From positions 1 to 64,000 of the forward strand of contig JAFQBB010000042.1 of assembly GCA_017416805.1 (NCBI GenBank): a DNA stretch of 64,000 bases, in the 5' to 3' direction. This document shows, in pieces, positions 13,477-42,057 of the stretch (position 1 is its first letter; every line of letters starts with the position of its first letter). The translations under genes and the position numbers were made by a program. The notes beneath the pieces were generated by a model. That model saw nothing but the letters and a program-made list of their open reading frames with translations. It was not told where the DNA came from and did not search any database. The stretch comes from Bacteroidaceae bacterium (GTDB lineage Bacteria; Bacteroidota; Bacteroidia; Bacteroidales; Bacteroidaceae).

Positions 13477-13507
13477 CAAAGGTAGGATAAATTCTCAAAA
13501 GTACAAA
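13477..13507 (-). promoter_or_regulatory. Promoter of ATPase gene 1
   Basis: Minus-strand -33 TTTG (13504-13507), 19-base spacer, -7 TACCTTTG (13477-13484). The -33 box lies inside the first unit of the 22-bp array. Confidence 0.75.
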
Positions 13508-13576
13508 GAAAAATTCTCAATTCTATTTTCGAAAATTCTCAAAAGTACAAAGAAAAATTCTCAATTCTCCCGTTAG
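13489..13576. repeat. Phased array: four 22-bp units at ATPase 1 promoter
   Basis: AAATTCTCAA begins at 13489, 13511, 13533 and 13555, exactly 22 bp apart. Units 1 and 3 are identical over 22 bp, and units 2 and 4 share their first 14 bases, giving an A-B-A-B pattern. The array overlaps the -33 box, so it is a candidate operator. Confidence 0.85.
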
Positions 13577-13595
13577 AAGTGTTCTATTCTTCCGT

Positions 13596-13649
13596 TTCTC
13601 ACCACTCCCCTTCCCCGATGCCCATCTGTTGCATCAGGAAGCAGGCGTT
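13596..13649. repeat. 54-bp copy (B) of the MutS-like gene 3' end
   Basis: 53 of 54 bases match 15105-15158. Read on the minus strand it still encodes NACFLMQQMGIGEGEW and stop, immediately after the stop of the second DUF4143 ATPase gene. Confidence 0.92.
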
Positions 13650-13653
13650 TTCT

Positions 13654-14952
13654 TTATAAATTGTCCGCTTCGCCTGCAGCATACAAAGGGATGTTTTCCA
13701 TCCATTCTTGATTTATATAAGGACGGAGGCTAGTACGTAATCCTTTCAAGCCAGGATAGAGATTCCGAACAAAATGACTAAGTGACTTGCTCCGTACATT
13801 TTCTTCGGCCTTTACTTCTACGGGAATTATGCGTTCCTCTGTTTGTATGAGGAAATCTATTTCGCATTCGCTGTTGTTATTTGACCAATAATAAATCGGA
13901 ATTTCTTTATACAACAGTTGCTGCAGGACGAATTGTTCAGTGAATGCCCCTTTCCATTCGCGGAATACATTGTCTCCGTTTAACATCTGTGAAGCTGGAA
14001 CACGCGCCAGACATCCCAAAAGTCCTCCATCCAGAAGGAATAGTTTGAATGCAGTCAGATCTTCATAAAAACTCAATGGCATGATGGCTTCCGAGGCACG
14101 GGGAACTTTAGAGACGATACCGGCATCAATCAACCATTGTATGGCCAGTTCGTACTCTTTGGCACGTGCTCCTTTTCGGAGTGCACCGTAAATGAACTTT
14201 TTGTTTTCGCGGCTCAGTTGCGATGGCAAGCTACGCAATACCATCAGGATGCGTTGCACCTCATTGGCTGGTGCATGTTTGCCTATGTCATTCTGGTATC
14301 CGGTCAAGATATGTTGTTGTACAGCACGGACTTCAGCCAAATCGCGATTGGATACGAACTTGGATACGGCCTCGGGCATTCCTCCTACAAAATAGTATTG
14401 GCGTAACAGTTCCTCGTATTGATACGAAAGCGACTGTAGGATATCCCATTGGTGATTCTCGATACATTGGGCTTTGATGTCTTCTCCCAATGCATACAGA
14501 AATTCGATAAATGTGAGCGGCTGGACACGCATTACATCCACTTTGCCTACGGGGAAAGATTCTCCTTGATGGAGGGTTATTCCCAATAGTGAACCAGCCA
14601 CAATTACGTGTTGTTCTGGTGCTTCTTCTTGAAAGTACTTCAAAACTCCCAATCCACGGACTGCTTCTTGCAATTCATCAAATATGATGAGTGTCTCACC
14701 TGGCACAATGCGAATGTTCTTCTGAGCTTGTAGTCGCAACAGGATACGTGCTATGTCGTAATCGTATTCAAAAAGATTTTTTGCCCATGCTTCTCTGTCA
14801 AAATTGACATATACATAATTGCTGTATTCCCGTTTCCCAAATTCTTGCATTAACCATGTCTTTCCCACTTGTCGGGCACCTTCCAGTATGAGAGGTTTAC
14901 GGTGCGGGCTGGCCTTCCATGCTTGCAGATTTCTGTATATTTTTCGTTCCAT
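13654..14952 (-). CDS. AAA-type ATPase with DUF4143 nuclease-like C-terminus (2)
   Basis: 432 residues from the ATG at 14952 (MERKIYRNLQ); an in-frame TTG ten codons earlier is less likely. Walker A GARQVGKTW (about 24-32) and Walker B LIIFDELQEA (about 89-98) define the AAA domain. The DUF4143 part carries ECEIDF...IPVEVKAE, again the D...ExK pattern. It is only distantly similar to its neighbour, so the pair is not a recent duplication of one gene. Upstream lies a 33-34 bp array (15018-15107) that abuts the MutS-like gene. A -7-like TTACTTTGC is at 14979-14987. The biological role is unknown. Confidence 0.85.
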   Translation of the reverse strand: MERKIYRNLQAWKASPHRKPLILEGARQVGKTWLMQEFGKREYSNYVYVNFDREAWAKNLFEYDYDIARILLRLQAQKNIRIVPGETLIIFDELQEAVRGLGVLKYFQEEAPEQHVIVAGSLLGITLHQGESFPVGKVDVMRVQPLTFIEFLYALGEDIKAQCIENHQWDILQSLSYQYEELLRQYYFVGGMPEAVSKFVSNRDLAEVRAVQQHILTGYQNDIGKHAPANEVQRILMVLRSLPSQLSRENKKFIYGALRKGARAKEYELAIQWLIDAGIVSKVPRASEAIMPLSFYEDLTAFKLFLLDGGLLGCLARVPASQMLNGDNVFREWKGAFTEQFVLQQLLYKEIPIYYWSNNNSECEIDFLIQTEERIIPVEVKAEENVRSKSLSHFVRNLYPGLKGLRTSLRPYINQEWMENIPLYAAGEADNL

Positions 14953-15017
14953 TTTCTGTATTGTTTCCAATATGTGACGCAAAGTAAGTGATAATAAATG
15001 GATTATGCAAGTGTTTT

Positions 15018-15107
15018 ACACTTTTTCTGACGAATAAAGACAACTTTCTCTACATTTTCTCTGACGAATAAATGGCATTTTGCTACACTTTTTCTGACGA
15101 ATGATTC
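15018..15107. repeat. Phased array: three 33-34-bp units upstream of ATPase 2
   Basis: Units start at 15018, 15052 and 15085 and share acaytttttctgacgaat. The third unit runs into the stop codon of the MutS-like gene. Within units an 11-bp sub-rhythm is visible. Confidence 0.8.
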
Positions 15108-15158
15108 TCACCACTCCCCTTCCCCGATGCCCATCTGTTGCATCAGGAAACAGGCGTT
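15105..15158. repeat. Copy C: authentic MutS-like 3' end, parent of copies A and B
   Basis: These are the last 17 codons plus stop of the MutS-like gene. The same 54 bases recur at 13596-13649, and the last 33 at 12235-12267. Confidence 0.9.
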
Positions 15159-16196
15159 CATGTTTTGGGCGATGCCCGGGCGCAGGCGGTAGGCGAAGGT
15201 GAGCTGGTCGTTCCGGATGTCGGCCTCGAAGCAGAGGTTGTGTACGTGGGTGGGATAGTGGTCGGCCAGTGTGCCCAAGAGCAGGTCGTGGGTGGCAATG
15301 ATCCCGTTGGCCCGCAGGCGGACAAGCTGCCGGAGCAGTGCCAAGGAGCCTTTCTGCTTGTCCACCGAGTTGGTGCCGCGCAAAATTTCATCGAGTACGA
15401 TGAAGAGCTGTTCGCTCTGCTTCAGGGAGTCGATGATGAGCTTCAACCGCTTCAGTTCGGCAAAGAAGTACGACTCACCATCGCTCAGACTGTCGGCCGT
15501 GCGCAGACTGGTGAGCAGGCGGGCAGGGGTAAACGTCATCTTTGTGCCACAGACGGGCAGTCCCACACAGGCCAGCAGGTAGTTGACCGACACGGTGCGC
15601 AGGTAGGTGCTCTTGCCCGCCATGTTGGCACCGGTGATGACCAGAAAGTCGGGCCGTCCGTCAATCGTTATAGGGTTGGGCACACAGGTGCCGCGCCGCA
15701 TCAGCGGGTGGCTCAAGGCTGTGGCTGTATAGATGAAATTTCCATCGGTCTCCTGTGCATCTGGCCATGTGTAGTCGGGGTGGTGGCGCACAAATAGTGC
15801 CATTGATACATAGGCATCGGCTTGTGCCAACGCATCCATCCAAACGGGGATACGGGCAGAAAATAACCGTTTCCATCGCTCAATTTGGATTATTTGGTGT
15901 ATTTCCCAAAAAAAGAGACCGTTCAGCAGAAAGAGTAGTAAGACGTTGTTACGGCGGTCCAGATTGTCCATCAGTTTGCGTAACTGGTGGATGGCCGATG
16001 AGGCAGATGCTCCCCTCTCCTGCCCCACTCCTTTGGCTATCTGTTGCCATGCTGTTTCGTTTCTCCACGATGCCTGCTCCATCAGTTCCAGAGCAGGAGC
16101 CACCAATGACAAGGTGCGTAAGCGGTGGCTGTACTCCTGCTGCTTGCGGGTGATATGGGTAGTGAAGAGTGATGAGACGATGGTACCCTTATCCAT
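15108..16196 (-). CDS. MutS-family ATPase, apparently N-terminally shortened
   Basis: 362 residues. The MutS domain V ATPase is intact: Walker A GANMAGKST, Walker B IVLDEILRGTNS and the ATHD switch. A hydrophobic stretch LLLFLLNGLFFW lies near residue 85. From memory, Bacteroidetes relatives of this membrane-associated MutS type are about 600 residues, so the first 200 or more seem to be missing. No coding continuation is seen in 16197-16436, which holds only T-rich sequence and three weak 21-22 bp gtttg-spaced repeats. It lacks the MutS mismatch-recognition domains and is unlikely to be the housekeeping mismatch repair protein. Its 3' end has been copied twice downstream. Confidence 0.8.
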   Translation of the reverse strand: MDKGTIVSSLFTTHITRKQQEYSHRLRTLSLVAPALELMEQASWRNETAWQQIAKGVGQERGASASSAIHQLRKLMDNLDRRNNVLLLFLLNGLFFWEIHQIIQIERWKRLFSARIPVWMDALAQADAYVSMALFVRHHPDYTWPDAQETDGNFIYTATALSHPLMRRGTCVPNPITIDGRPDFLVITGANMAGKSTYLRTVSVNYLLACVGLPVCGTKMTFTPARLLTSLRTADSLSDGESYFFAELKRLKLIIDSLKQSEQLFIVLDEILRGTNSVDKQKGSLALLRQLVRLRANGIIATHDLLLGTLADHYPTHVHNLCFEADIRNDQLTFAYRLRPGIAQNMNACFLMQQMGIGEGEW

Positions 16197-16436
16197 TATC
16201 TCTTCTCTCTAAAATCGGTTTGTCTTGCTCTTTTTCTTAGTTTGCTTTGCTCATTTATTGGTTTACTGTTTACAGTTATAACATTCGGCTTTCATTTCCA
16301 TGTTTTCTACTTGCGAAAGTTGAATTATAAAGCAAGAATATGCTTCTTTTTCTTTCGGAGAATAACTATTTTTGCATTTTCTTACTTAAGTTTTCCTTCC
16401 TTTGTACGTATAGAGAGTAAAAGCATTATTTGAAAC

Positions 16437-16946
16437 ATGGACAAAACGACCTTTGAACAGACAGCAGCGCGGCTGCGTCCTCTGGTTCTTCGTATCGGGC
16501 GCGACTTCTTCGGCTCGGCGGACGATGCGGAGGATGTGGCGCAAGAGACGTTGCTACGCCTATGGCAGTACTGCCAGCGGTTGGACGAAGGTCGGAACAT
16601 GGAAGCGCTGGCTGCAAGGGTGGCCAAGAACTGCTGTGTGGATATGCAACGGAGGAGCCGCATTGATACGGTAAGGGAAGGTGAGGAGGTCTTGGTGCTC
16701 AGCCCCGCCTTGATGCCATCGCCGCACGAAGAGTTGGAGCAAAAGGAAGGAGTGGAGGCTCTGGACGAGGCCGTCAATCAGCTGCAGGTGCGCGAGCGAC
16801 AACTCTTTGAGATGCGGCAGCAAGAGGGACTGTCAATTGAAGAGATTGCCCAACAGACGGGCATACCGAAGGCATCAGTGCAGAGCATGATAGCCATGGC
16901 AAGAAAAAAAGTGTTTAACGAAATGAAAAGGAGGATGAACAGATGA
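16437..16946 (+). CDS. ECF-type RNA polymerase sigma factor (system 1)
   Basis: 169 residues. Region 2 (about 10-75) has DAEDVAQETLLRLWQY for core binding and -10 recognition. Region 4 (about 105-165) has the helix-turn-helix SIEEIAQQTGIPKASVQSMI. It directs transcription of envelope genes in response to an exported signal. It overlaps the next gene by 4 bp (ATGA), the usual sigma/anti-sigma arrangement. It is paralogous to the sigma factor at 21096-21614. Confidence 0.9.
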   Translation: MDKTTFEQTAARLRPLVLRIGRDFFGSADDAEDVAQETLLRLWQYCQRLDEGRNMEALAARVAKNCCVDMQRRSRIDTVREGEEVLVLSPALMPSPHEELEQKEGVEALDEAVNQLQVRERQLFEMRQQEGLSIEEIAQQTGIPKASVQSMIAMARKKVFNEMKRRMNR

Positions 16947-17638
16947 CTGTAGAAGAAATCAACAGGCTTATTGACAGATATTTGGAAGGACTGACTTCGC
17001 CCGAGGAGGAACAACGGTTGGCTGTAGAGGTAAATCGGACGGATGCTCCGCAGGAGTGGATGATTATCCGTGAAATGTTGGGCGAGCTGACCCTGGGCGA
17101 AGCCATTTATGACGAGGTGGTGAAGACTCGCAGGCGTCGCCATCTGTGGCATTATGCAGGATGGGGCATTGCCGCCTCGCTGGCACTTCTCCTTGCTGTA
17201 GGTGCTTTGTTGCCCAAAGACTCTGCAGAAAGCAGGGTAGGGGAAAAGATGGTGGCTGAAACACTTCTACAAGATGAAAAGGAGACGAAGCCTGAAACAA
17301 CGGTGGCACCGATAGTGGAGGAAATGGAAAAGGTCGGGGTGGAACAGACTGAAGAGGAAGAACGTCCGGCAGTGGTCAGACCCACTGCCACATTAGCCCA
17401 AGTGGCAAAGGAGGAAGCGCCGGTAGAAGAGGCGGAGGAGACCGCAGAGAAGACCTTTTCACTGGAAGACTTGAAGGCGCAGGTGAGCGAAGCCGACCTG
17501 GCTCAGGTGGAAAAGAATTTTGAGCAGTGGCAGTTGCGGCAGACCATTCTTCATGAAAGTATCGAATTGCAGATTGCTATCAAAGAACTGGAGCGGAAAT
17601 ACGAATCCTATCTGGCTGAGAATGTGATAGAAATATAA
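16943..17638 (+). CDS. Membrane anti-sigma-like protein (system 1)
   Basis: 231 residues. The cytoplasmic N-terminus (1-66, INRLIDRYLEGLTSPEEEQ) matches the N-terminus of the system-2 protein at 20278. It is followed by one transmembrane helix (about 68-90) and an acidic, Glu-rich extracytoplasmic part with a coiled-coil-like end. No zinc anti-sigma motif is seen. The translational overlap with the sigma gene argues that it holds the sigma factor at the membrane. Inference from position and topology. Confidence 0.75.
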   Translation: MTVEEINRLIDRYLEGLTSPEEEQRLAVEVNRTDAPQEWMIIREMLGELTLGEAIYDEVVKTRRRRHLWHYAGWGIAASLALLLAVGALLPKDSAESRVGEKMVAETLLQDEKETKPETTVAPIVEEMEKVGVEQTEEEERPAVVRPTATLAQVAKEEAPVEEAEETAEKTFSLEDLKAQVSEADLAQVEKNFEQWQLRQTILHESIELQIAIKELERKYESYLAENVIEI

Positions 17639-17659
17639 ACCATAAAAACTGTATAGAAT

Positions 17660-18754
17660 ATGAAGACAAGAAACACTCGTTGGATGATGTGGATGCTGAT
17701 GATGGCCATGGCTGTCGGTGCATCGGCACAGAAGAATGTACTGAAGGCATTCGACAAGGTGAAGAGAGGCGAAGGCGTAATAGTAGAAAGCGTGGATAAC
17801 AAAAAGAGTGAAAAACCTGCCGTTTTGTGGTATTGCAATATCACGGAATTGAGCATCCCCAAGAAGGAAGATGTGGCAAAATATATGCCGGAATTGTACA
17901 AGGCATTTATAAAGGATAGCGAAAAGGAGAGTACTACTTTTTATAAAGAAATTCCCTCCTTGGGGTACAATGCTACGGAGGAAGAAACTGCCGGTCGTAA
18001 AAAGATTGTGGTGAAATACATTTCCCATCATTCATCTGTCGTTATAGGAGAAGACCCCTCGTACACGGCCATTGTATTGCGTAGTATGGTAAAATCACAC
18101 ATTACCAAACGGGTAGTGGTGGCCATGGAGTATAAGAAAGAGGCAAGTGGAGGATTGTCAGTAAAGCTTTATGAGATAATGGGAGACAATTTCGATTTGG
18201 GAGAAGAAACAGTTTCGGCCTTTCATGAAGAGGCGGCGGTGCATGTCCCTCAAACGCGAAAGGACGGTATCATCACCCGTATGCATTTCTATCGGGATAC
18301 ATACAACGGTGAAGACAGTTCGGAGAACAGCGCCCTGCTGCTGAACATGACAGAGTATCTGAATGCCCATTGGGGCAAGGCTTCCGGGGCTGAACAGGAA
18401 ATGATACAGCTCATTCTGCGGGATATGGCCGGCCGTTCAAAGGCTCAGATTCACCGCGACCTTATTGAGAGATGTGCCCACACATTGAAGGGTGGAAGTG
18501 GAAAAGGATACGATTTTGATGCTGTAAAGCGGGTGAGACTGTATGTGGATGATTACAAGGCATGCAGTACCACTTATAATAAAGGTCAGGTGCTGGACGA
18601 TCTGAAATCTTATATCAGGAAATTAAAGCAGAAGGGAATCAACGAAAATACATCAAACGATGTGTACGAACATCTGGTGGAACTGAGGCGTATAGCAAGT
18701 ACCAGTTATCACCAAGGGGTGATATCCGATATTGTTAGAATTTTGCAGAAATAG
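17660..18754 (+). CDS. Exported protein of unknown function in sigma operon 1
   Basis: 364 residues with a Met-rich signal peptide ending ASAQ (about residue 24). No known domain was recognised. The middle is mixed alpha/beta and the C-terminal 130 residues are mostly helical, with many Lys and Arg. It starts 21 bases after the anti-sigma-like gene, so it is probably part of the same transcript and may be the sensor input or main target of the sigma factor. It is followed by a strong terminator at 18778-18815. Confidence 0.6.
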   Translation: MKTRNTRWMMWMLMMAMAVGASAQKNVLKAFDKVKRGEGVIVESVDNKKSEKPAVLWYCNITELSIPKKEDVAKYMPELYKAFIKDSEKESTTFYKEIPSLGYNATEEETAGRKKIVVKYISHHSSVVIGEDPSYTAIVLRSMVKSHITKRVVVAMEYKKEASGGLSVKLYEIMGDNFDLGEETVSAFHEEAAVHVPQTRKDGIITRMHFYRDTYNGEDSSENSALLLNMTEYLNAHWGKASGAEQEMIQLILRDMAGRSKAQIHRDLIERCAHTLKGGSGKGYDFDAVKRVRLYVDDYKACSTTYNKGQVLDDLKSYIRKLKQKGINENTSNDVYEHLVELRRIASTSYHQGVISDIVRILQK

Positions 18755-18777
18755 GAATAGGGAATTGTCCCGAGCAA

Positions 18778-18815
18778 AAAGTCCGTACCCGATTGCGAAA
18801 TGGGGTACGGACTTT
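18778..18815 (+). terminator. Hairpin terminator of sigma operon 1
   Basis: Perfect 13-bp stem aaagtccgtaccc/gggtacggacttt with a 12-base loop, 23 bases after the stop, followed by gtttgttctttatg. Confidence 0.8.
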
Positions 18816-18856
18816 GTTTGTTCTTTATGACTGTTCATGCATCGGACAGGCCTCAT

Positions 18857-18943
18857 CTTTCCTTCCCAAAAGGAAAGTTTTGCAGAAAAGTTTCCTTCTG
18901 AAAAGGAAAAGATTGCCCATTTGTTTCCTTTTTAGAAGGAAAC
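18857..18943. repeat. Phased array: three 33-bp palindromic units
   Basis: Palindromes ctttcc...ggaaag (18857-18877), tttcc...ggaaa (18891-18909) and gtttcc...ggaaac (18923-18943) have centres at 18867, 18900 and 18933, exactly 33 bp apart with 13-bp spacers. They lie between two convergent operons. Confidence 0.85.
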
Positions 18944-19010
18944 GTTGATGCGTAAACAAAGCAACATAGGCAAATGCTCCGACACCGGCGAGGGGCATAT
19001 ACAGGAAAAA

Positions 19011-19040
19011 GTTGTGGCACGTCTCCCGACGTGCCACAAC
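19011..19040 (-). terminator. Perfect 12-bp hairpin between convergent operons
   Basis: gttgtggcacgt/acgtgccacaac with a 6-base loop, 66 bases downstream of the minus-strand lipoprotein gene. It may terminate that operon; there is no clear T run. Confidence 0.5.
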
Positions 19041-19105
19041 CAAGCTATGATAAAATATACTCATTTTATGTGCTTCTCTTCCTGTATAGATTTAAGTATA
19101 TTTTT

Positions 19106-20281
19106 TTATTCCACGATTTTCCGTTCTACGTATTCAAACAGTTTCTGGTTTTCGCGCAGGGTTTCCACCTCCATGTTCATTATCTGTTGCCCTTTTGGGT
19201 TTGCTCCCCAGGCGTTGAAGGGTTCACCGTCCAATTCGATGTAATGAATATGGGTAACGTCCAACGGGATGGGTTCGAACTCGAGTACCAAGGCAAACCA
19301 GTCGCCTGCACACTCTTCAACCCAGAACAGATGGTCCATAGGGACACCTTGTATTCCCTTCAATTTGTATTGCTTACCGTCATTGCCGTCCAACAAGAAG
19401 GTGTTGCTGTTGTACCTATAGTACTCTCTTGTCCATGTCTGGTTGTGCGGTACAGCCAGATAGGTAGCCTCCGGTGTTCTCCAAAGAGCAAAGGTATTCT
19501 GGTTTTCCAGCGGCTTGATGGTATGCACCTTGTGGTAGTAGGCCCATGTGTCGGCATCGTCCTTGTTGTAGTTTTGCTCGGGCTGTTTCAGTTGCGGGGT
19601 GCGGATGTTCGGTTTCTGGTCGTATTCGGCATTCTCCAGTCCATTCCGCTTGATTTTGATTCTGCCTTCACTGTCGTACAACCCCCAGTTGGGAACACCC
19701 GTGATGGATATATATTGGGTGGATTCCGGTAGCGGTGGGAAGGTGATGGTGAAGTCTATCAGCGAGTCCTTGGGAGCCTGCACGGTGAAGTACTGTTGCA
19801 TGACGTCGGGCGTTGTCACTCTTGGCTTGTAGTGTACACCTGTCTCTTCATCCACGATGTAGGTCTCCTCGCCGCCGAGCCACATTCTCTTCACCGGATG
19901 GGCCGGCATTGGGAAGTAACAGTGGAGCACCGTCTGGTTCTGCTCTTCCTTCAGTTCCCAAAAGAGACCAGTCAAGTCATTGCGTGATCCTATATCCTTG
20001 CGTGCTTCGGCCAGTTTTTGGTAAGGTTGGGTGTGTCTTCCTGCAAAGTTCAGATCTTCAGTCTTGACGGTCTTGACATCGCCGCGGTATTTGTTGGCGG
20101 TTCTGCGCCATTCGATGACGCTGTCTTGCAGTTCTTCGTCCCACACCTGAGGAGCTGAGTTCCACCAATATATCTTACTTTGATACAAGGTACTGTTGTC
20201 TGTAAAGTTTTCTGCCACTTTAGGGGCGCATGCCGAGGCCAGGATACATGTGGCCATGATGGCTACTCTTGATTGTTTCAT
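19106..20281 (-). CDS. Lipoprotein of unknown function in sigma operon 2
   Basis: 391 residues with a lipoprotein signal (lipobox ASAC, Cys18). The mature part is rich in Trp, Tyr and beta-strand-like segments. No catalytic motif was recognised. It overlaps the preceding anti-sigma-like gene by 4 bp (ATGA), so the three genes sigma, anti-sigma and lipoprotein are translationally linked. It occupies the place held by a different exported protein in system 1, suggesting that each sigma system has its own envelope partner. Confidence 0.65.
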   Translation of the reverse strand: MKQSRVAIMATCILASACAPKVAENFTDNSTLYQSKIYWWNSAPQVWDEELQDSVIEWRRTANKYRGDVKTVKTEDLNFAGRHTQPYQKLAEARKDIGSRNDLTGLFWELKEEQNQTVLHCYFPMPAHPVKRMWLGGEETYIVDEETGVHYKPRVTTPDVMQQYFTVQAPKDSLIDFTITFPPLPESTQYISITGVPNWGLYDSEGRIKIKRNGLENAEYDQKPNIRTPQLKQPEQNYNKDDADTWAYYHKVHTIKPLENQNTFALWRTPEATYLAVPHNQTWTREYYRYNSNTFLLDGNDGKQYKLKGIQGVPMDHLFWVEECAGDWFALVLEFEPIPLDVTHIHYIELDGEPFNAWGANPKGQQIMNMEVETLRENQKLFEYVERKIVE

Positions 20282-21099
20282 ATCTTTATGGTTTTATGGT
20301 TATTTATGATATACGGATTGTTTTCTATTTCGCTCCTGAATTCGCGGTAGCAGGTCGAGAAGACCGATGAATTGGTCGTTGTGTACGAGCAATGGAGCAG
20401 GATGCGGCCTCTGACCCTCTCTGCCATCCACTGGTAATGGATGTTCTTCCGGCTGTCTTCCAACTGGAAGATAAACTGCTTGTCGTTGAGGCTCAGGTGG
20501 TAACCAGGGTGCCTGTTGCTGTACCAGCAGGCCACCTGCACCAGTCGTCCGATGATGTCCTGCTCTTCGTTGTCGGCGAACAGATAGACAGATTCCTGCG
20601 GGGCATTCTCCGTCGATGTCGGACAGTCGGGGTGGAGACTGTCGGCACTATAGACCTTGGCCAGTTCCTTGATGAATCGGGTGACACGGGCAGGGTCCTG
20701 ATAACTCTCTGCGACCATTGTCGTAGTAGGAGCGGATGATGCAGTCGGAGCGGTCTCTGTGGCCGGTTCTGAGGCTGCCAATACGGTCTTGTCCGCCTCA
20801 TGGCGATGGTATCTCCATGAGAAACCAAAACCCACCAACAGCAACAGACAGGCTGCCGCTGCCCACCACCAGTTCTGCAGCGATGGCTTGTGGGTGAACC
20901 TTTGCGTAGCGCGCTCTGTCATGATGTGGTCGAACAGTGCTTCGTCAGTGGCCAGTTCGCCCATCATGGCGGCTATGAGTTTCCACTCTTCGGGAGCGTC
21001 ATCACGCGTCACTTCCAGCGCCAGCTGCTTCTCTTCCTCCAAGGTAGTCTCGCCATTGAGGTACTTGGTAATCAGTATTTCAGTTTCCTTGTGCGTCAT
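20278..21099 (-). CDS. Membrane anti-sigma-like protein (system 2)
   Basis: 273 residues. The N-terminal 65 residues (ETEILITKYLNGETTLEEEK...) align with the system-1 protein at 16943. A transmembrane helix follows at about 75-95 (WWWAAAACLLLLVGFGF), then an extracytoplasmic domain without recognised motifs. It overlaps the sigma gene by 4 bp and the lipoprotein gene by 4 bp. The likely role is to restrain the sigma factor until an envelope signal arrives. Confidence 0.75.
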   Translation of the reverse strand: MTHKETEILITKYLNGETTLEEEKQLALEVTRDDAPEEWKLIAAMMGELATDEALFDHIMTERATQRFTHKPSLQNWWWAAAACLLLLVGFGFSWRYHRHEADKTVLAASEPATETAPTASSAPTTTMVAESYQDPARVTRFIKELAKVYSADSLHPDCPTSTENAPQESVYLFADNEEQDIIGRLVQVACWYSNRHPGYHLSLNDKQFIFQLEDSRKNIHYQWMAERVRGRILLHCSYTTTNSSVFSTCYREFRSEIENNPYIINNHKTIKI

Positions 21100-21614
21100 G
21101 ATTTCAAACTCTTCTTTAATTCTTCATATATTTTTCTTCGCGCAGTTGAGATAATGCTCTTCACCGATGGTTTGGAGATGTTTGTCTTACTGGCTATTTC
21201 GTCCAGTTCCCAGCCTTCAATCTGACGGAGTTCGTAGAGCCGGCGCTCGCCAGGAGTCAGCTGCCCGATGGCTTCGTCTATGGCAGATTGCAGTTCATCA
21301 GTTTCCAGTATCTCTTGAGGCGATTGTGCGGCCGGCATCTCTTTCGTGATGGAATCGGGAGGGATAGCACCGTACAGTTGGACAGACTCTTTCCGCTTCC
21401 GCATCATGTCCATGCAACAATGTTTGGCTATTCGGATGGCAAGTCCCTCATGAGTCTGACCGATATCCAAGCGGTCGCGGTATCTCCACAGAGCCACCAA
21501 TCCTTCCTGAGCCACGTCGTCTGCATCCGACTCGTTGCCGAAGAAGTTGCGTCCCACGGACATCATCACTTTTCTCAGTCCTGGAGCAATTGTCTCAAAC
21601 TCTGCTTGTGTCAT
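21096..21614 (-). CDS. ECF-type RNA polymerase sigma factor (system 2)
   Basis: 172 residues. Region 2 has DADDVAQEGLVALWRYRD and region 4 has ELDEIASKTNISKPSVKSI. It is paralogous to the sigma factor at 16437; both share the FFG.(S/E)(A/S)DDAxDVAQE block. It heads a three-gene operon in which each gene overlaps the next by 4 bp. The upstream sequence on the minus strand contains ttactttttgc at about 21699-21709, a loose -7 box. Confidence 0.9.
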   Translation of the reverse strand: MTQAEFETIAPGLRKVMMSVGRNFFGNESDADDVAQEGLVALWRYRDRLDIGQTHEGLAIRIAKHCCMDMMRKRKESVQLYGAIPPDSITKEMPAAQSPQEILETDELQSAIDEAIGQLTPGERRLYELRQIEGWELDEIASKTNISKPSVKSIISTARRKIYEELKKSLKS

Positions 21615-21828: not shown

Positions 21829-21912
21829 TATCCCAAAGCTTGGGACAAGTAAACCAAGGTTTGGTCCAATTATCCCAAGGCTTGGTTTAAGTAAACCAAA
21901 GCTTGGGATAAG
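21829..21912. repeat. Phased array: four 21-bp palindromic units
   Basis: Units start at 21829, 21850, 21871 and 21892, exactly 21 bp apart. Palindromes of the CCCAAAGCTTGGG and ACCAAGGTTTGGT types alternate (A-B-A-B). The array lies between the sigma operon start and the 3' end of the permease gene. The remainder of 21615-22019 holds no gene. Confidence 0.88.
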
Positions 21913-22019
21913 TTACTTTTCGGTACTTTTGTCTGTTTAAAGTGTGACTTATCATTTTGGTGGCTGTATGGGTGGAAATGTTCAACTGAAGAGAAATAAG
22001 AAGAACTTGCAAAGAAGCA

Positions 22020-33062: not shown

Positions 33063-33146
33063 AACGTCATTTGATTTTCCGAAATATTAGGTTTTTCTAC
33101 TGTTTAGTTTGAAAGTATGTCCAATCAAAAAACAGGTCTAAAAAAT

Positions 33147-33234
33147 GAACATATGTTCAAGTGCCTCTGAACATATGTTCAAATGCCAACGAACATATGT
33201 TCGTGGCCACTTGAACTTATGTTCCTATTTTCTC
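33147..33234. repeat. Phased array: four 22-bp palindromic units
   Basis: GAACATATGTTC occurs at 33147, 33169 and 33191, and GAACTTATGTTC at 33213, exactly 22 bp apart with 10-bp spacers of unrelated sequence. It lies downstream of the thioesterase gene. Confidence 0.92.
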
Positions 33235-33354: not shown

Positions 33355-33357
33355 TTT

Positions 33358-33599: not shown

Positions 33600-33646
33600 A
33601 AGTGAATTTAGATACAATGGTATGCAAAATTCTTTTTATCTTAAAA

Positions 33647-33689: not shown

Positions 33690-33716
33690 GTGTGCGCAAA
33701 CAGAGCTTATTTTCAT

Positions 33717-36167: not shown

Positions 36168-36268
36168 GTATTAAAGGCGTAGTTATGTGAGGTAAAGAAT
36201 ATGTTTGACGACCTTGTGCCATATAAATAGGCAAAGGCCGTCAATGTTTTTTTGTTAGAGAATAAAAC

Positions 36269-36883
36269 TTAGAAGATATAAGCTACGTGGATTTTCCAAG
36301 TCTTGTTCTTGGCACCAAACGTGTCGATAACTTTATTGGTACCACTAACCATATCCATTTCTTCATCTTTAAATTCTGCAGTATCGCCAAGAGGTATATT
36401 ATAGGTGACACCTGCTTGCAAATGGCTGAGAAGTTTTACACCTACACCAAGGTTCAAACTGAGTTGTGAATCCTTGAAAATTTCTTGTCCGGCCCATTTC
36501 TCCTGAGAAAGAGCGTAAGTGAATTGAGGACCTGCAGCGGCATAAACAGCTGCTATACTGCCCAAACCAATAGAATACTTCAAGTTTACAGGGATTTCAA
36601 GGTTATGGCTTTTTAATGTTTCACCTTCTTTGGGGTTGATGCCTGTCTGTGAATAAAGCAAGGCACCATCTACACCTAAACCGATGATGGGGAGAGTAAA
36701 TTCGGCCATAGGGCCAATAAAGAAACCTGTGAAGTTGTCTGATTTGATGTCGCTTTCATCAAAATCTGCCTTTTGGAGGTTTACACCACCCTTAACACCC
36801 CAACCGAATTGGGCTTGTGCTGACTGAACACCCGTGAATATCAAGGCTACAGCCACAAATAGAGTACTGATAATCTTTTTCAT
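36269..36883 (-). CDS. Small outer-membrane beta-barrel protein (porin family)
   Basis: 204 residues, signal peptide ending AQA. The mature part has FGWGVKGGVNLQKAD near its start and WKIHVAYIF at the end, with alternating hydrophobic strands: the eight-stranded outer-membrane barrel family common in Bacteroidetes. The function is unknown; proteins of this type often stabilise the envelope or bind ligands. The -7 box TATATTTGC is at 36914-36922. Confidence 0.85.
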   Translation of the reverse strand: MKKIISTLFVAVALIFTGVQSAQAQFGWGVKGGVNLQKADFDESDIKSDNFTGFFIGPMAEFTLPIIGLGVDGALLYSQTGINPKEGETLKSHNLEIPVNLKYSIGLGSIAAVYAAAGPQFTYALSQEKWAGQEIFKDSQLSLNLGVGVKLLSHLQAGVTYNIPLGDTAEFKDEEMDMVSGTNKVIDTFGAKNKTWKIHVAYIF

Positions 36884-36913
36884 TGTTTCTTATTTTTTTA
36901 ATGTTTAACGTCT

Positions 36914-36922
36914 GCAAATATA
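36914..36922 (-). promoter_or_regulatory. -7 promoter box of barrel protein gene
   Basis: Minus-strand TATATTTGC, 31 bases before the start codon. Confidence 0.6.
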
Positions 36923-36996
36923 CAGCAACCCATCAGAAGAACAAAATAAATATCATTTTTTTTCATTTACTTGCTTTCTTTTTCTCCGTTACAAAC

Positions 36997-37962
36997 TCAA
37001 AACGCCTTTATCTCTTCACCCAATATGTCGCTGAGCAACAGGTTGGCCAATCGGCTGGTGCCAATGCGGAAGAGGGTAGGGGAGAGCCATTCTTCGCCTA
37101 ACAGCTCTTTCACGATGGTGTAGTAGGAGAGGGCATCCTGCACTGTGTTAATGCCTCCTGCGGCCTTAAAACCAATTTTACGGCCAGTTTTGGCATAATA
37201 CTCCTTAATGGCCTGACACATGACGAAAGCGGCCTCGGGAGTGGCACTCACGGCTTCCTTGCCTGTAGAGGTCTTGATGAAGTCGGCTCCACTGTACATG
37301 GCCAGCAGGGCGGCACACTTGATGTTGGTGGCTGATTTCAGTGCACCAGTCTCCAAGATGACCTTCAATGCATGGTCGCCACAGAGGGCTTTCAGCTCCT
37401 GCAACTCGTCGCACATACCTTCGTAGTCGCCGCTGAGGAACTTCCCTACGGGGATGACCACATCAATCTCTGTAGCTCCTTCGTGCAGGGCAAGGCTGGT
37501 TTCGGCAATCTTCACCTCCATAAAGGTTTGTGATGAGGGGAATCCGCCGCTCACGCAAGCAACTTCTACCCCCTCAGCTTGAAGTGATTCGCTGACAATA
37601 CCGGCAAAGCAGGGATAGACACAGAGAGCCGCTACGTGAGGAAGGTCGGGATGCTCTTCGTCCAACGTGTTGACTTTTTCTACAAAATTGAGCACACTCT
37701 CCTCGCTGTCGGTACACTTCAGTGTGGTGAGGTCAAGACAGCCCAAAAGAGCCTTTTTTACCTCAAGTGTATCATTCTCGCTGACGCGTTCAAGCAGGCG
37801 TGAAACTTGTGCCTGGATGTGTTCGTCGCTCAATTGGGTGTCATACTGTGCCAAGGCTTCGTGGTACTTGTCCTGGCTACTGAAATCTTCCTCGTGAAAG
37901 TGGTCATGATCGTGTCCGCATCCGCAATCACAATCATGGTCGTGATGATGATAATGGTTCAT
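36997..37962 (-). CDS. deoC: Deoxyribose-phosphate aldolase with His-rich N-terminal extension
   Basis: 321 residues. Cleaves 2-deoxyribose 5-phosphate to glyceraldehyde 3-phosphate and acetaldehyde in deoxynucleoside catabolism. The barrel has the Schiff-base lysine segment DFIKTSTGK and the second lysine in IGFKAAGGI. An extension of about 50 residues precedes the barrel, and its first 25 residues are almost entirely His, Asp and Cys (HYHHHDHDCDCGCGHDHDH), a probable metal-binding tail. Downstream of mazG (20 bp gap) and dtd, which suggests one operon. Confidence 0.93.
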   Translation of the reverse strand: MNHYHHHDHDCDCGCGHDHDHFHEEDFSSQDKYHEALAQYDTQLSDEHIQAQVSRLLERVSENDTLEVKKALLGCLDLTTLKCTDSEESVLNFVEKVNTLDEEHPDLPHVAALCVYPCFAGIVSESLQAEGVEVACVSGGFPSSQTFMEVKIAETSLALHEGATEIDVVIPVGKFLSGDYEGMCDELQELKALCGDHALKVILETGALKSATNIKCAALLAMYSGADFIKTSTGKEAVSATPEAAFVMCQAIKEYYAKTGRKIGFKAAGGINTVQDALSYYTIVKELLGEEWLSPTLFRIGTSRLANLLLSDILGEEIKAF

Positions 37963-37982
37963 AATGGTTATAATTTCAATTT

Positions 37983-38309
37983 TTAATTCTTTAATTTTTC
38001 ATTCTCTACGTGCCTTGTCTTGTCCCGCTCCGTCTTCTTCTGCAGGTTTCGTTCAAAGGCCGCGGTAAGGTCAACTCCCGTCTGGTTGGCCAGGCAGAGG
38101 AGCACCCACAGTACATCGGCCATCTCATCGCCCAAGTCATGCTTTTCGTCTTTCTTGAACGATTGGTCACCGTAGGTACGTGCCATGATGCGTGCCAGTT
38201 CGCCCACCTCTTCGGTGAGGCAGGCCATGTTGGTCAGTTCGCTGAAGTAACGCACGCCGTACGTCTTTATCCAGCGGTCAACGGTCTCTTGTGCTTCTTG
38301 TAGGGTCAT
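37983..38309 (-). CDS. MazG-type nucleotide pyrophosphohydrolase
   Basis: 108 residues, cytoplasmic. Hydrolyses nucleoside triphosphates to monophosphates, a house-cleaning role. The metal-binding motif is LTEEVGEL...LGDEMADVLW (EExxE and ExxD). This is the single-domain MazG-like form. It is followed closely by deoC and preceded by dtd, with a repeat element (38326-38400) between it and dtd. Confidence 0.85.
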   Translation of the reverse strand: MTLQEAQETVDRWIKTYGVRYFSELTNMACLTEEVGELARIMARTYGDQSFKKDEKHDLGDEMADVLWVLLCLANQTGVDLTAAFERNLQKKTERDKTRHVENEKLKN

Positions 38310-38325
38310 ATTAATTTAGTTTTTA

Positions 38326-38400
38326 GCTACGAGCTACAAGTTACGAGCTAACTTTGCTGTGCTTTTACACTCGTAGCTTGTAGCTCGTCACTTGTCACTA
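38326..38400. repeat. agctcgtcact-family inverted repeat between mazG and dtd genes
   Basis: Left arm agctacgagctacaagttac, right arm (38368-38392) cactcgtagcttgtagctcg onward. The right arm is identical over 25 bases to the copy within the GH10 gene. Confidence 0.75.
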
Positions 38401-38402
38401 GT

Positions 38403-38855
38403 TCACTCTTTATTCTTCGTATCCATGCAAATCGTTACCGGTCCATCGTTCAGCAACTCCACTTTCATGTCTGCACCGAACTCACCTGTGCCTACAGGTT
38501 TCCCAAGGGCAATGCCCAACTCTTCGCAAAACTGTTCGTAGAGCGGTATGGAGATGTCCGGCTTAGCAGCCCGTATGTACGACGGACGGTTTCCCTTCTT
38601 GGTGGAGGCAAACAGGGTAAACTGGCTGATGACCAATATGTCGCCCCCGGCATCCTGGATGTTTTTGTTCATCACTCCCTGTTCGTCATCAAACACCCGT
38701 AGCCCCACAATCTTCTTACAGAGCCACTGTATGTCCTCTTCTGTATCAGCGTCCTCAATGCCCACGAGTACCAGCAATCCCTTCTCTATGGCCGATTTCA
38801 CCGTCCCATTGATAGTTACCGATGCGTGGCTGACGCGTTGTATGACTGTTCGCAT
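38403..38855 (-). CDS. dtd: D-aminoacyl-tRNA deacylase
   Basis: 150 residues. Removes D-amino acids wrongly attached to tRNA. Family motifs SQFTLFAS (about 77-84) and NDGPVT near the C-terminus are both intact. Normal length. In related genomes I recall it directly following uvrC; here uvrC is 14 kb away. The DUF6155-like gene lies 15 bp upstream in the same direction. Confidence 0.95.
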   Translation of the reverse strand: MRTVIQRVSHASVTINGTVKSAIEKGLLVLVGIEDADTEEDIQWLCKKIVGLRVFDDEQGVMNKNIQDAGGDILVISQFTLFASTKKGNRPSYIRAAKPDISIPLYEQFCEELGIALGKPVGTGEFGADMKVELLNDGPVTICMDTKNKE

Positions 38856-38870
38856 AGATTATTCTCAATT

Positions 38871-39380
38871 TTATTGATATTGATAATAGAAGTCATATAA
38901 TGTATCAGGAAATCCCCAACCGCACTTCTCAGATATCTTTAACATCATTTCGATGCGGGGACGAAGTTCTTCCAAATACCCATTCTTGTATATAAACTCC
39001 ATTGCTTTACCAAAATTATTTTCTAAAGCAATATAGTATTGTTCCCACATATCGCCATACTCGACTGTAAAGCTTACTCCCGTTTCAATGTTAAAAAGCA
39101 TCAAATCGGCAATGCAAGCAGGATGGGGTTTCAGTTTTTTGAAATCACTTACAGCTTTTCGACAAACGCTGAACCGGCATTTGGGTTCGCCGCGATTCGG
39201 GTAAAACTCATTATGGATGATTTTCTTATATTCTTCCAATTTAGCATCATCGTTAGGCTTCATATAAAAATCCAAATATTCTTTTGCTTCTTTACGTGCT
39301 TCGTAAAGTTCCAAAACAACATCTATTACCTGTTCTTTTGTTAACTTTAGCAGGTATTTCTTTAATTGGGCTTTTGACAT
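38871..39380 (-). CDS. DUF6155-like protein
   Basis: 169 residues, cytoplasmic, mostly helical and charged. The opening KAQLKKYLLKLTKEQVIDVVLELY and the later HPACIADLMLFNIE resemble the Bacteroidetes family I know as DUF6155, which has no assigned function. It is 15 bp from dtd and 15 bp after the GIY-YIG gene on the same strand, so probably part of a longer transcript. Confidence 0.65.
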   Translation of the reverse strand: MSKAQLKKYLLKLTKEQVIDVVLELYEARKEAKEYLDFYMKPNDDAKLEEYKKIIHNEFYPNRGEPKCRFSVCRKAVSDFKKLKPHPACIADLMLFNIETGVSFTVEYGDMWEQYYIALENNFGKAMEFIYKNGYLEELRPRIEMMLKISEKCGWGFPDTLYDFYYQYQ

Positions 39381-39395
39381 GATTGGAGCTATAAT

Positions 39396-40340
39396 TTATT
39401 TAAGAGTTTCTTTGAGCATTGCAATATCGGCTTCTGATAGGTTAAACCATTCACCTCTAATATTTTTCTCAGAAAATACTTTATGTAGGGCTTGTTCGAT
39501 AGCATATGCAAGCCTCCTATTGGGATATTTTTTTGCATATAAAATTTCTATGCTTGGCTTTTCACTTTGAAGAGTTCGTTCTCTGTATTGGGGCGTTTTT
39601 GATATTCCTATTTTATAAAAATTGTTCAAGGTATCGTGCATAAGGTATACATAGCATTCTTCATTATTTTTGCAAAGTTGTACATTTCCCTCTATTTCTG
39701 AGATATTTTGGTTCATATTATCGTTAATTTCTTTGCAATTTGTGATTTCTTGACCAATTCTTACATTATCCAACATGTTAGGTATACTATCATATAATCC
39801 AAGTTTTTTTAGTATATAATCATATATTGTAGCATACATTGTAAATGATTTAAATCGTTTAGTTTTCTTCAAAGTACAGCTTTTAAAAGTTGTTTTATTT
39901 GTTTTGTCCGATGATTCAATATAAATGGAACTTAAACCATTATTTGTTAGACTATTTAAAGCTTCTTTTGATAGGGGAAATCTAAGAATGTTTTTATTCT
40001 GGTTATATATCTGATTTCCATCGCTTTGTATTTCTATAATTTTACTGTCTAAGAATCTGAAGCACAAGTTGTTGTCAGAACCTATTCTAAGATTCTTTGG
40101 CTTAAATATTATATTTATGACCGGATAATTATTGTAAATATTGAGATCAATCAATAAGAAATTGTAACCTTTGCTTTCTCTCAAAAGAAAACCAGGCCTT
40201 TTGTTGTTGTGATTATAGTCTTCAATAATGTCCCATATTATAATTTTACTATGGTTCATTTTCTCTATTCTATATTGAAAAGCATTCATATAGTTTTCTG
40301 ACAAATTTATAATACTCCTCTTATAAATAATTTTTTTCAT
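39396..40340 (-). CDS. GIY-YIG/T5orf172-type nuclease-domain protein
   Basis: 314 residues. Residues 1-220 are AT-rich-coded, Asn/Ile/Lys-rich and unrecognised. Residues about 228-310 match the T5orf172 branch of GIY-YIG domains: YVYLMHDTLNNFYKIGIS, then a conserved Arg (YRERTLQ), Ile/Glu (EILYAKKY), AIEQALHKVF and GEWFNL. Base composition is clearly lower in GC than the flanking dtd-mazG-deoC genes, which suggests acquisition. It may cut DNA or act in mobile-element or phage conflict; no partner shows this directly. The start overlaps the end of the AlbA-type pseudogene by 20 bp. Confidence 0.7.
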   Translation of the reverse strand: MKKIIYKRSIINLSENYMNAFQYRIEKMNHSKIIIWDIIEDYNHNNKRPGFLLRESKGYNFLLIDLNIYNNYPVINIIFKPKNLRIGSDNNLCFRFLDSKIIEIQSDGNQIYNQNKNILRFPLSKEALNSLTNNGLSSIYIESSDKTNKTTFKSCTLKKTKRFKSFTMYATIYDYILKKLGLYDSIPNMLDNVRIGQEITNCKEINDNMNQNISEIEGNVQLCKNNEECYVYLMHDTLNNFYKIGISKTPQYRERTLQSEKPSIEILYAKKYPNRRLAYAIEQALHKVFSEKNIRGEWFNLSEADIAMLKETLK

Positions 40341-41741
40341 CGTTCCCTTTTCTCCTCATCATTTCCCTTAGTTGCAATCCCTTTGGAGTCAATCGATATT
40401 TCTGATTAATGCTCTTAGGTTTGTCAGGAATAGTCAGTTCTACATATCCAGCTTCGATGGATGGTTTCAGATATTCTTTCAGGAAATGTTGGCGATGGTT
40501 TATTTGAACTAATTCCTGTAATGATTCTCTGTTTAACTCTCCTTCAATGACCGTAATCAGTTTTTCAACATGTGCGGTAACATGTGCGGTAACATGTGCG
40601 GTCGCATCCTCTATTTTTACTTTATCTATTTGTTGTTCAACGTCTTCAGCATGTGCGGTATCATGCACACTGACAGGAAAGGTGATGCGAATGAAGTTGT
40701 CGGTGAACTTGAAACTTTCTTCACCGTATGCGCGAAGGATACGGGGGATGCCGGAGCCTAAAGATTCCACCAACTCCACATCACGGTAAATGCGCATCAA
40801 CTCTTTGTTGCGGGGGATGGAAATACCGTTGAAGAACTCTTCGTGGCTGAGAGACTCGGGCAAGCGGCCGGCAGAAGTGATTTCAAGCCTGTCGGGGAAT
40901 ATCTCAAATTTAGGCGGAACCTCAAAGGAGTAATCGTTGTGTACGATGGCGTTGATAACCGCTTCGCGAAGGGCAATCCTATTCCATAGAGGCGTTTCAT
41001 GCGTTCTACCGGAGTAATGGTGGCTGCTGTCCTGTTTTCTACCTCCAGTTTGGCCAATACGCTCTTGGTGGCTTTGATGAGGGAGCAATAACCATATTCG
41101 TTGTTCTCTATCAGGTCGCATCTGTCAAGGCTGGAGTATTTGGCCACTTTGATGGAATTGTTGTTCTCGTCGGCCAGCAAGTAGGCTACATAGTTATATT
41201 TCCCGTCTTCTGTCAATAATTCCAATGTACGTTTGAAATTGTCGTTCAAACGTTTACCATGCTCATCATAATAGATGCGCAATTGCTCGAAAGTCAAGTC
41301 CTGACGGTTAGAAACAATGCGTCCGATGGAGTTTCGGGTACGCATGGCAAACAGTCGGTCAATTTGCTCCTGTGGCATCGGTTCGGCAGAAGTTCCCACA
41401 CGGATATATGCCCCTTTGGGAGTCATTCCGTATTTCGTTTTGAAATAAGCCTTTTCTATACCGCTGGCCACCGTCAGTTTGATGATGCTGAGGCCATCGC
41501 GTTGCTCCGTGGCAATATCAAACAATCCCATAGCCGAAGGGGAGACGTTATTCTTGATGCGGTCTTTCAGCTTCAGCATACAGCCATCTATATCATCTAC
41601 ACCTACGGTCTTTCCATCGCGGTCTATTCCGATGTAGATGAATCCACCTTCCTTATAATTCAAGAAGGCCACCACCTCTTTCTCTATATCCACGTCAGGT
41701 GTCAGTTCCTGCTTATATTCTATCCGATTGGTTTCCGCCAT
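40321..41741 (-). pseudogene. AlbA_2/HATPase-type transcriptional regulator, frameshifted
   Basis: The 5' part (41741 to about 41000) encodes the Schlafen-type AlbA_2 domain (RIEYKQELTPDVDIEKEVV, FIYIGIDRDG). The 3' part in another frame (about 41000 to 40321) encodes the ATPase-like half (LREAVINAIVHNDYS, LGSGIPRILRAYGEESF) and a C-terminal winged helix. The two halves join at GAAACG near 40994-41000 by a one-base shift; an intact relative would read through from TPVERMK into ETPLWNRIALREAV. The linker contains three 12-bp repeats (40568-40602, AHVT units). It is probably inactivated, or the shift is phase-variable. A -7 box TACCTTTG is at 41774-41781. Confidence 0.8.
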
Positions 41742-41971
41742 CTTCTGTTTGCAATTTTACGGTTATTCGTCCACAAAGGTACAAAAGTTCCTTTATTGTT
41801 GTATAGAAGATGACAAAAAAGAGTTGCAAGAATTGCTTTTTCCCTCAAGCAGTTTTTCCTATTATGAGAGATTGATTCTACTATTTTCAATGGAATAAGC
41901 AAACAAAATCACATTTTTGTGACGAACTTATCATTTTTTTGTACCAGCAACAAAAGGAATCAGATGTTTTT

Positions 41972-42057
41972 GTTTTGTACACAAAACGATTTTTATTCAA
42001 ATTTGTTTTGCTGATAAAACAAATTATGCGTAATTTTGTCCCGCCTATAAAACAAAT
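41972..42057. repeat. Phased array: three 33-bp units at ATPase 3 promoter
   Basis: Units start at 41972, 42005 and 42038, exactly 33 bp apart, each with gttttg/gtcccg followed 11 bases later by AAAAC. Palindromes gttttgtacacaaaac and atttgtttt-N6-aaaacaaat are centred 33 bp apart. A weaker unit may precede at 41939. Confidence 0.75.
42007..42038 (+). promoter_or_regulatory. Promoter of ATPase gene 3
   Basis: -33 TTTG (42007-42010), 20-base spacer, -7 TAATTTTG (42031-42038), 25 bases before the ATG. Both boxes lie inside the 33-bp array, so the array is a plausible operator. Confidence 0.7.

Follow-up and report, generated by a model that had tools for sequence, protein, structure and literature searches.

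What are the short tandem repeats that precede three related ATPase genes in one piece of bacterial DNA, and do they say anything about the genes behind them? The question is raised by a stretch of 64,000 nucleotides from a Bacteroidaceae bacterium (positions 1 to 64,000 of the forward strand of contig JAFQBB010000042.1, assembly GCA_017416805.1; the whole stretch is referred to as the window), in which three proteins related to the AAA_14-DUF4143 family are encoded, each behind an array of regularly spaced units. With a probability of roughly 70%, we consider many of the DUF4143 genes, which are also counted as the defence candidate PDC-S01, to be one-gene mobile units carrying their own operator.

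Three arrays in front of three ATPase genes

The genes and arrays of the window are listed below, the winged helix-turn-helix (wHTH) part being read from sequence; lengths are in base pairs (bp) and amino acids (aa).

12266..13453, minus strand: gene 1, AAA_14-wHTH-DUF4143 protein of 395 aa, clade D (22-bp arrays), from Pfam and PADLOC
13489..13576, minus strand: array 1, four AAATTCTCAA/TTGAGAATTT cores at an exact spacing of 22 bp
13654..14949, minus strand: gene 2, AAA_14-wHTH-DUF4143 protein of 431-432 aa, clade B (33-bp arrays), from Pfam and PADLOC
15017..15107, minus strand: array 2, three TTATTCGTCAGARAAARTGTA units in steps of 34 and 33 bp
41972..42057, plus strand: array 3, three imperfect dyad units in steps of 33 bp, cores at 41983, 42016 and 42049
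42063..43262, plus strand: gene 3, AAA_14 protein with a divergent DUF4143 domain, 399 aa, clade C (33-bp arrays)

The original prediction had described arrays of 4 x 22 bp, 3 x 33-34 bp and 3 x 33 bp before the three genes, and exact copies of the cores confirm them. The AAATTCTCAA cores of gene 1 start at 13489, 13511, 13533 and 13555, every step being 22 bp, and the TCTGACGAAT cores of gene 2 start at 15026, 15060 and 15093, with steps of 34 and 33 bp. Tandem Repeats Finder (TRF) independently reported arrays 1 and 2 (13489-13564, period 22; 15017-15102, period 33); array 3 lies outside its list and was detected by self-comparison at lag 33.

All three proteins pass the Pfam cut-off for AAA_14 (PF13173), with 82.9, 90.4 and 104.2 bits for genes 1, 2 and 3. 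That for DUF4143 (PF13635) is passed by genes 1 and 2 only, with 99.8 and 115.4 bits, gene 3 staying just below the cut-off of 28.1 with 24.6 bits, so that genes 1 and 2 belong to the family by both domains and gene 3 by AAA_14 only. The scores of gene 2 refer to the frame from 14982, its start probably being ATG 14949 rather than TTG 14982. All three proteins match the PADLOC models of PDC-S01, with best E values of 7.7e-180, 8.4e-174 and 2e-26 for genes 1, 2 and 3. A search for relatives of solved structure, which covered gene 2 only, found none (best E 0.22).

Repeats upstream of DUF4143 genes and their period

The window's assembly contains 20 DUF4143 matches, which amount to 17 distinct genes after removal of a fragment (L014; loci are numbered with L, genomes with G) and two duplicates (L010, L019). 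The pairs L009/L010 and L018/L019 are identical over every overlapping base and were therefore handled as assembly duplicates, a reading as recent duplications being set aside. Direct repeats at lags of 18-40 bp were scored in the region -300..+20, with gene starts having at least 100 bp of intergenic space as controls. A score of at least 10 was reached by 15/17 DUF4143 genes vs 43/189 control starts (Fisher 1.1e-7), and the strong control hits were mostly of other kinds, namely low-complexity runs and arrays of 21-24 bp whose cores are palindromic in several cases. The thresholds (9-10 for this repeat score, 20-40 for the flanking-repeat score used below) were chosen by us in the course of the work.

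A per-lag comparison over the own genome and its relatives (lags 12 to 79 bp, region -200..+20) included 68 DUF4143 open reading frames (ORFs) of at least 360 aa, eight of the 76 collected having been dropped (short or no upstream DNA), and 325 control starts. Repeats at lag 31-35 preceded 40/68 DUF4143 genes vs 22/325 other gene starts (P=6e-21), with peaks at lag 32 (17/68 vs 9/325) and lag 33 (27/68 vs 6/325) and a harmonic at lag 66 (9/68 vs 4/325). The signal at lag 21-24 was weaker (13/68 vs 25/325, P=0.006), and the lag bands 25-30 and 36-42 held 0/68 DUF4143 genes each. The 22 control hits include at least two (L077, L089) that by eye are DUF4143 arrays common to a divergent neighbour, so the contrast at lag 31-35 is conservative. 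Both comparisons revealed the enrichment over other gene starts that the original prediction led one to expect.

The repeat period tracks the protein clade in the tree. A period of 31-34 bp prevails in clades A, B and C and in the L011 group; clade D shows 22 bp in all four tree members, and 22 was the best lag in 14/14 clade-D loci fetched, a set with scores of 7-36, some of them low, in which L247 duplicates the tree gene L088. A 22-bp class shared by all DUF4143 genes was rejected, this period being confined to clade D, and the pair L071_8514/L076_15933 has a period of 23 bp. Lag 32-33 with a score of at least 10 was found in 25/29 clade-B homologues, L103 and L105 of this set repeating the earlier loci L062 and L060. 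For clade A, 80 loci were fetched, among them records of Bacteroidota, Treponema, Deltaproteobacteria, WOR-3, KSB1, Calditrichaeota, Delongbacteria and Caldisericaceae; upstream DNA sufficed in 78, 65 scored at least 9, and 62/78 did so at lag 32-33 (best lag 32 in 55, 33 in 7).

The array as a universal DUF4143 trait was rejected: a sample of the 30 best-scoring PF13635 loci, from 18 genomes reached via non-Bacteroidota records, left 25 usable loci, 9/25 of which score at least 10, five of these at lag 32-34. Among the window's relatives the PF13635 model scores an array-less clade highest, which probably explains the few arrays of this sample. The small groups L018/L040/L070_15902 and L008/L079/L073 show no clear array either, and in a further sample 17/28 usable loci score at least 10 at any lag of 18 to 40, some of them with other repeat classes.

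Array and presumed recognition helix vary together

Does the protein read its array? In clade A, array similarity was compared with identity in sliding 15-residue protein segments, overall identity being held constant, for the 67 genes with arrays out of 88 examined (the near-duplicates L059 and L141 included). The best segments were residues 226-240, with a partial r of 0.356, and 221-235, with 0.303, the next-best segment beyond the HTH region reaching only 0.130. In 1000 permutations the maximum across all segments was 0.229 (p=0.001); permutations of this kind leave some phylogeny in, overall identity was partialled out, and a second run, from which pairs above 62% identity were dropped, gave an r of 0.341. 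Segment 226-240 is presumed to be the recognition helix of the wHTH (consensus SYNELxQxxGxDxxTVExYIDLLEK). At the same segment, control DNA gave -0.054 for the 90 bp upstream of the array and -0.013 for the 90 bp past the stop, and the first 90 bp of the ORF, taken as a positive control (66/67 arrays), peaked at residues 15-29, as expected.

Among single columns, 227 was best (0.316), followed by 317 (0.234), 226 (0.232) and 234 (0.221). At residue 227 the code is partly legible: lysine goes with arrays of the AATCC..GGATT type (19/24 vs 3/43 others) and asparagine with TTCAC..GTGAA arrays (5/6 vs 0/61), counts that are phylogenetically non-independent, the five TTCAC arrays being largely one clade.

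Because the array covaries with the presumed recognition helix while the neighbouring DNA does not, the most likely target of each ATPase is its own array. The clade-A result thus supports the recognition of own arrays that had been proposed for these ATPases from the window alone; by covariation, the own DNA-binding domain matches the own promoter-proximal sites in clade A and does so at a borderline level in clade B. The analysis was run for these two clades, and the window genes 1, 2 and 3 belong to clades D, B and C. In 53 clade-A proteins the presumed Walker and D-ExK residues are conserved (G28, K29, D79, E80, D323 and K338 invariant, E336 nearly so), which argues that catalysis matters.

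A private array at the promoter

When up to three mismatches were allowed, the gene-2 unit was found at five sites in the whole 3.16-Mb assembly (91% complete); the array of gene 2 accounts for three of them, that of the paralogue L006 for one, and the fifth stands isolated. No second array of this unit exists in the assembly; this points to autoregulation, with the gene's own promoter as the target, and a regulon for gene 2, the one gene for which the genome-wide unit search was made, was rejected.

The Bacteroides-type -7 box has the motif TAnnTTTG. Among 45 arrays, it overlaps the array in 11 and follows within 25 bp in 15, so that it lies within or just past the array in 26/45. The -7 boxes that had been placed inside the arrays of genes 1 and 3 were recovered for gene 3, one candidate (42031) lying within array 3, and in part for gene 1, where -94 and -50 have a box inside or among the units and a further one, at -31, follows the units; gene 2 yielded no TAnnTTTG.

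Insertion at the MutS_V locus and at two other sites

Genes 1 and 2 both lie downstream of a MutS-like gene, between copies of its 3' end:

15105..15158, minus strand: first copy, the 3' end of the MutS_V gene itself (15108-16196, minus strand)
13596..13649, minus strand: second copy of the MutS_V 3' end, 54 bp, 53/54 identical, between elements 1 and 2
12235..12267, minus strand: third copy of the MutS_V 3' end, 33 bp, right flank of element 1, overlapping the stop of gene 1 by 2 nucleotides
13650..15104, minus strand: element 2, an inserted unit of 1455 bp made up of array 2, promoter and gene 2, bounded by direct repeats

In the relative G002, array 1 and gene 1 come immediately after the MutS stop; the MutS end is present once and gene 2 is absent, and this locus reads as a natural empty site for element 2. 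Two further sites were resolved by searching the joined flanks in 15 genomes of the genus. The flanks of L060 are contiguous in G012 (1-1000, 82%), where a sequence of 195 bp is single that is doubled in the occupied allele. Those of L001 are contiguous in G006 (1-846, 95%), where the same holds for a sequence of 150 bp, and at L001 the duplicated host sequence supplies the stop codon of the DUF4143 gene. Occupied and empty alleles with defined ends are therefore available for gene 2 (G002), L001 (G006) and L060 (G012), and their comparison gives host duplications of 54, 150 and 195 bp. Insertion with duplication of host sequence is claimed for these three tested sites and not as one mechanism for all loci. 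Window gene 1 and its copy in G012 lie at unrelated sites; their homology (82% identity) is confined to the stretch between -110 and 6 bp before the stop.

Other relatives carry traces at these loci. Behind the MutS_V stop of G005 (L121), array 1 is left together with the first codons and the last part of gene 1; we take this for an orphan array created by an internal deletion, and orphan arrays can be scars of lost DUF4143 genes. In G014 (L123), a DUF4143-like protein is encoded, by eye, convergently behind the same MutS_V gene, whose 3' end may be a repeated landing place.

At the L001 site, an extra piece of host sequence of 79 bp (91% identical) lies about 1.05 kb upstream, off the junction, in both G000 (occupied) and G006 (empty), and is perhaps the scar of an older event. 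The clade-D units L244 (G014) and L247 (G011), at different loci, each lie between two similar terminator-like hairpins (AAAGAGTTGTTGC..GCAACAACT with a T run); the hairpin might be a favoured target or else belong to the unit.

How general flanking repeats are

Flanking direct repeats with a score of at least 25 surround 14/45 DUF4143 genes vs 2/194 other ORFs (P=1e-9, odds ratio 43), the controls being ORFs of 250-600 aa away from DUF4143 genes (3/40 near ones were set aside); the difference was significant at each of four cut-offs. By gapped alignment, flanking repeats were seen in 37/156 loci, i.e. in 21/76 of the own genome and relatives and in 16/80 of the clade-A set, some loci being short of flank and L059 and L141 looking like one element. 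A scan of the flanks of gene 3 (L015) found no flanking direct repeat. In eight cases (L004, L007, L001, L087_3281, L088, L142, L150 and L151) the stop codon and the right edge are no more than 10 bp apart. Of 28 placeable insertions, 11 are at the 3' end of a host gene, 12 intergenic, four within an ORF and one at a 5' end; the nine left out comprise five repeats containing the array, two too far from the gene and two short of flank.

The repeats measure about 30 to over 400 bp (up to about 460), unlike the fixed short target duplication of a classical DDE insertion sequence. Binding sites at both ends, as in Tn7-type elements, were not found either: units behind the gene occur in just 4/50 clade-A arrays, and an array at both ends of the unit was accordingly rejected. 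The number of DUF4143 matches per genome within the genus is 0, 1, 2, 4, 4, 5, 6, 8, 8, 14, 15, 18, 20, 20 and 29, several assemblies being incomplete and the 20 of the own genome including duplicates.

The 2/194 control ORFs that also have long flanking direct repeats are L083:17181-17979 and L085:15018-16161. In the clade-A loci L141, L169, L176 and L210, the whole array or one unit is repeated behind the gene in the same orientation.

Other repeats in the window

The observation of phased arrays at the three promoters holds, and it has to be complemented, as 21-23-bp arrays also occur away from DUF4143 genes in the window. TRF places them at 8687-8758, 21833-21913, 33146-33224, 46117-46201 and 52837-52897, mostly with palindromic cores. 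In 464 kb, the core GAACATATGTTC recurs at two places and GTGCCGCA at three, a further type, TATCTTAAGATA, is found at four, and the array of the 21833 type has several more matching places in G000 and G006. These arrays are probably a separate class of interspersed repeats.

A near-identical stretch is shared by the window (about 740-830) and L038 (about 5660-5720), with pairs of TTACACRTCACTAAAAT 32 bp apart; it stands upstream of a peptidyl-prolyl isomerase-like gene (by eye) in one case and of an unrelated gene in the other, and is perhaps another interspersed element. The intergenic region 45690-46000 contains several possible hairpins by eye. An Rfam scan found nothing above threshold in the window, this region included.

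Proposed mechanism and alternative explanations

We propose that the protein combines an AAA_14 ATPase, a putative winged HTH and a PD-(D/E)XK nuclease-like domain, and that the winged HTH would bind the palindromic or bipartite array units upstream of its own gene. Units of 22 or 32-34 bp correspond to about two or three helical turns, which would place several protomers on one face of the promoter; bound in this way, they presumably repress the gene, and different operators for each paralogue would prevent cross-talk among the 10-29 copies of some genomes. The unit of array, promoter and ORF, about 1.2-2.2 kb long, would enter new loci, often just past the 3' end of a host gene, and end up between two copies of a host sequence of about 30-300 (up to about 460) bp, movement being driven in our model by the ATPase and nuclease of the protein itself. 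Put in its widest form, namely that DUF4143/PDC-S01 genes are an unrecognised class of one-gene self-mobilising elements, whose wHTH reads a private array in most branches and which insert behind host genes with long variable duplications, the proposal is offered tentatively, at slightly less than even odds.

Several observations weigh against this explanation or narrow it. Column 317, second best in clade A, falls in the nuclease domain. In clade B (39 arrays of 46 examined) the best segment, residues 243-257 in the presumed wHTH, gave 0.235 with a borderline P=0.038, nearly equalled by the non-HTH residues 36-55 with 0.231. The rule is clade-dependent: in the L001/L041 clade an array within 200 bp was seen in 0/8, and 16/25 usable loci of the top-PF13635 sample score under 10. 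The -7 box is neither inside nor just behind the array in 19/45 arrays. No flanking repeat was found in 119/156 loci, some for want of flank, and 5/37 repeats contain the array itself; the regions were mostly chosen where hits cluster, which may inflate the flanking-repeat rate. The array-less members L001, L041, L046 and L043 have flanking repeats too, so that the array is not needed for mobility. In G006, gene 1 is found at the locus lying on the window's GH10 side, between two short fragments of the MutS end; an adjacent MutS gene is missing from the DNA seen, that of G006 being on another contig. Therefore, not every repeat pair need be a target duplication, and repeats may move along with the unit or result from homologous re-integration or rearrangement.

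The G006 locus also lends weight to an alternative in which the genes are passive cargo, i.e. host or defence genes spread by homologous or illegitimate recombination, their flanking repeats stemming from one-crossover integration and the array being a plain autoregulatory operator. The variable repeat length, with no fixed target duplication, would suit such a history, and PADLOC lists the family as a phage-defence candidate (PMC12988326). What speaks against it is the enrichment of flanking repeats over other genes of the same loci, the clearest cases being single-gene units with one end within 10 bp of the stop codon, and the range from 0 to 29 matches per genome inside one genus; we regard this explanation as unlikely, though it deserves to be taken seriously. 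A smaller share of our belief goes to the idea that the array is mainly an element end or origin, at which the ATPase assembles on phased sites to start transposition or replication, in the manner of iterons or multi-site transposon ends. The strict phasing of the units would fit, as would the leftward position of the array within the unit, some ten arrays lying within 6-45 bp of the repeat junction, and the recurrence of the array or one unit behind the gene in 4/50 clade-A arrays. The absence of such a copy in 46/50, the position of arrays at promoters in 26/45 and the flanking repeats of array-less members make an operator the more likely role, and the homology of the clade-D units in G011 and G014, which already begins about 50 bp upstream of the array (103 bp before the gene), also argues against an element end. 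Finally, the occurrence of other 21-24-bp arrays in the same genome away from DUF4143 genes could suggest that the repeats are ordinary intergenic or low-complexity sequence, linked to DUF4143 by chance. For the arrayed clades this is contradicted by the per-lag controls, the clade-specific period and the helix covariation with its negative controls, and chance was rejected on the per-lag and gene-start controls, leaving it a negligible probability.

Our preferred explanation, a mobile one-gene unit with its own operator, would have consequences of two kinds. If members bind their own promoter via a readable helix, the family gains a molecular function open to test, and wHTH specificity could be learned from its many natural pairs of protein and operator. 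Movement as a one-gene unit would call into question whether defence can be inferred from genomic neighbourhood; in the widest form of the proposal, a much-counted "defence system" would be largely a selfish element, and its embedding, for which it was called defence, an insertion habit. Self-mobility is directly testable on the clean occupied and empty alleles.

Comparison with known systems

Tn7-type ends and plasmid iterons have phased direct repeats to which the element's own protein binds cooperatively. The DUF4143 unit shares the phased direct repeats and differs in having the array at one end only in 46/50 clade-A arrays, no fixed target duplication and a single gene.

PDC-S01 is the same kind of protein, a single-gene phage-defence candidate of AAA_14 and DUF4143, and the window proteins match its models. 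Its source is reportedly the preprint of Payne et al. 2024 (10.1101/2024.01.29.577857). Another paper ranks PDC-S01 as the fourth most common defence across all prokaryotes, with 29,494 detections in Bacteria and 9,986 in Archaea, describes it as an ATPase fused to a PD-(D/E)XK domain that became a candidate by "guilt-by-embedding", and calls the validation of most PDCs still pending (PMC12988326). In a rumen genome set it is reported as the most frequent individual locus (PMC13356809). The difference to our proposal is that a self-inserting gene beside others could appear "embedded" without being a defence gene. In the accessible portions of the literature on DUF4143, PF13635, AAA_14 ATPases, PDC-S01 and single-gene mobile AAA elements, preprints lying outside this scope, neither a link to arrays nor mobility is described. 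That array and gene together look like a mobile one-gene unit had not been foreseen in the original prediction.

Paralogues that specifically autorepress individual operons within one genome are indicated, by the title of the source, for RepA of repABC plasmids (PMC4492784); these are plasmid partition proteins and not mobile single genes with a nuclease domain. The nearest functional parallel is I-TevI and the free-standing T4 endonucleases. According to PMC2988022, the DNA-binding part of I-TevI occupies an operator over its own promoter and autorepresses, and the seg and mob genes of T4-like phages, encoding free-standing homing endonucleases, are likewise mobile nuclease genes. Homing endonucleases of this kind are GIY-YIG or HNH enzymes, whereas the DUF4143 proteins would join an AAA ATPase, a wHTH and a PD-(D/E)XK domain, and, unlike I-TevI, seg and mob, the DUF4143 units display several phased copies of the putative operator, duplications of host sequence, operators that appear to be specific to each paralogue, and up to 29 matches per genome.

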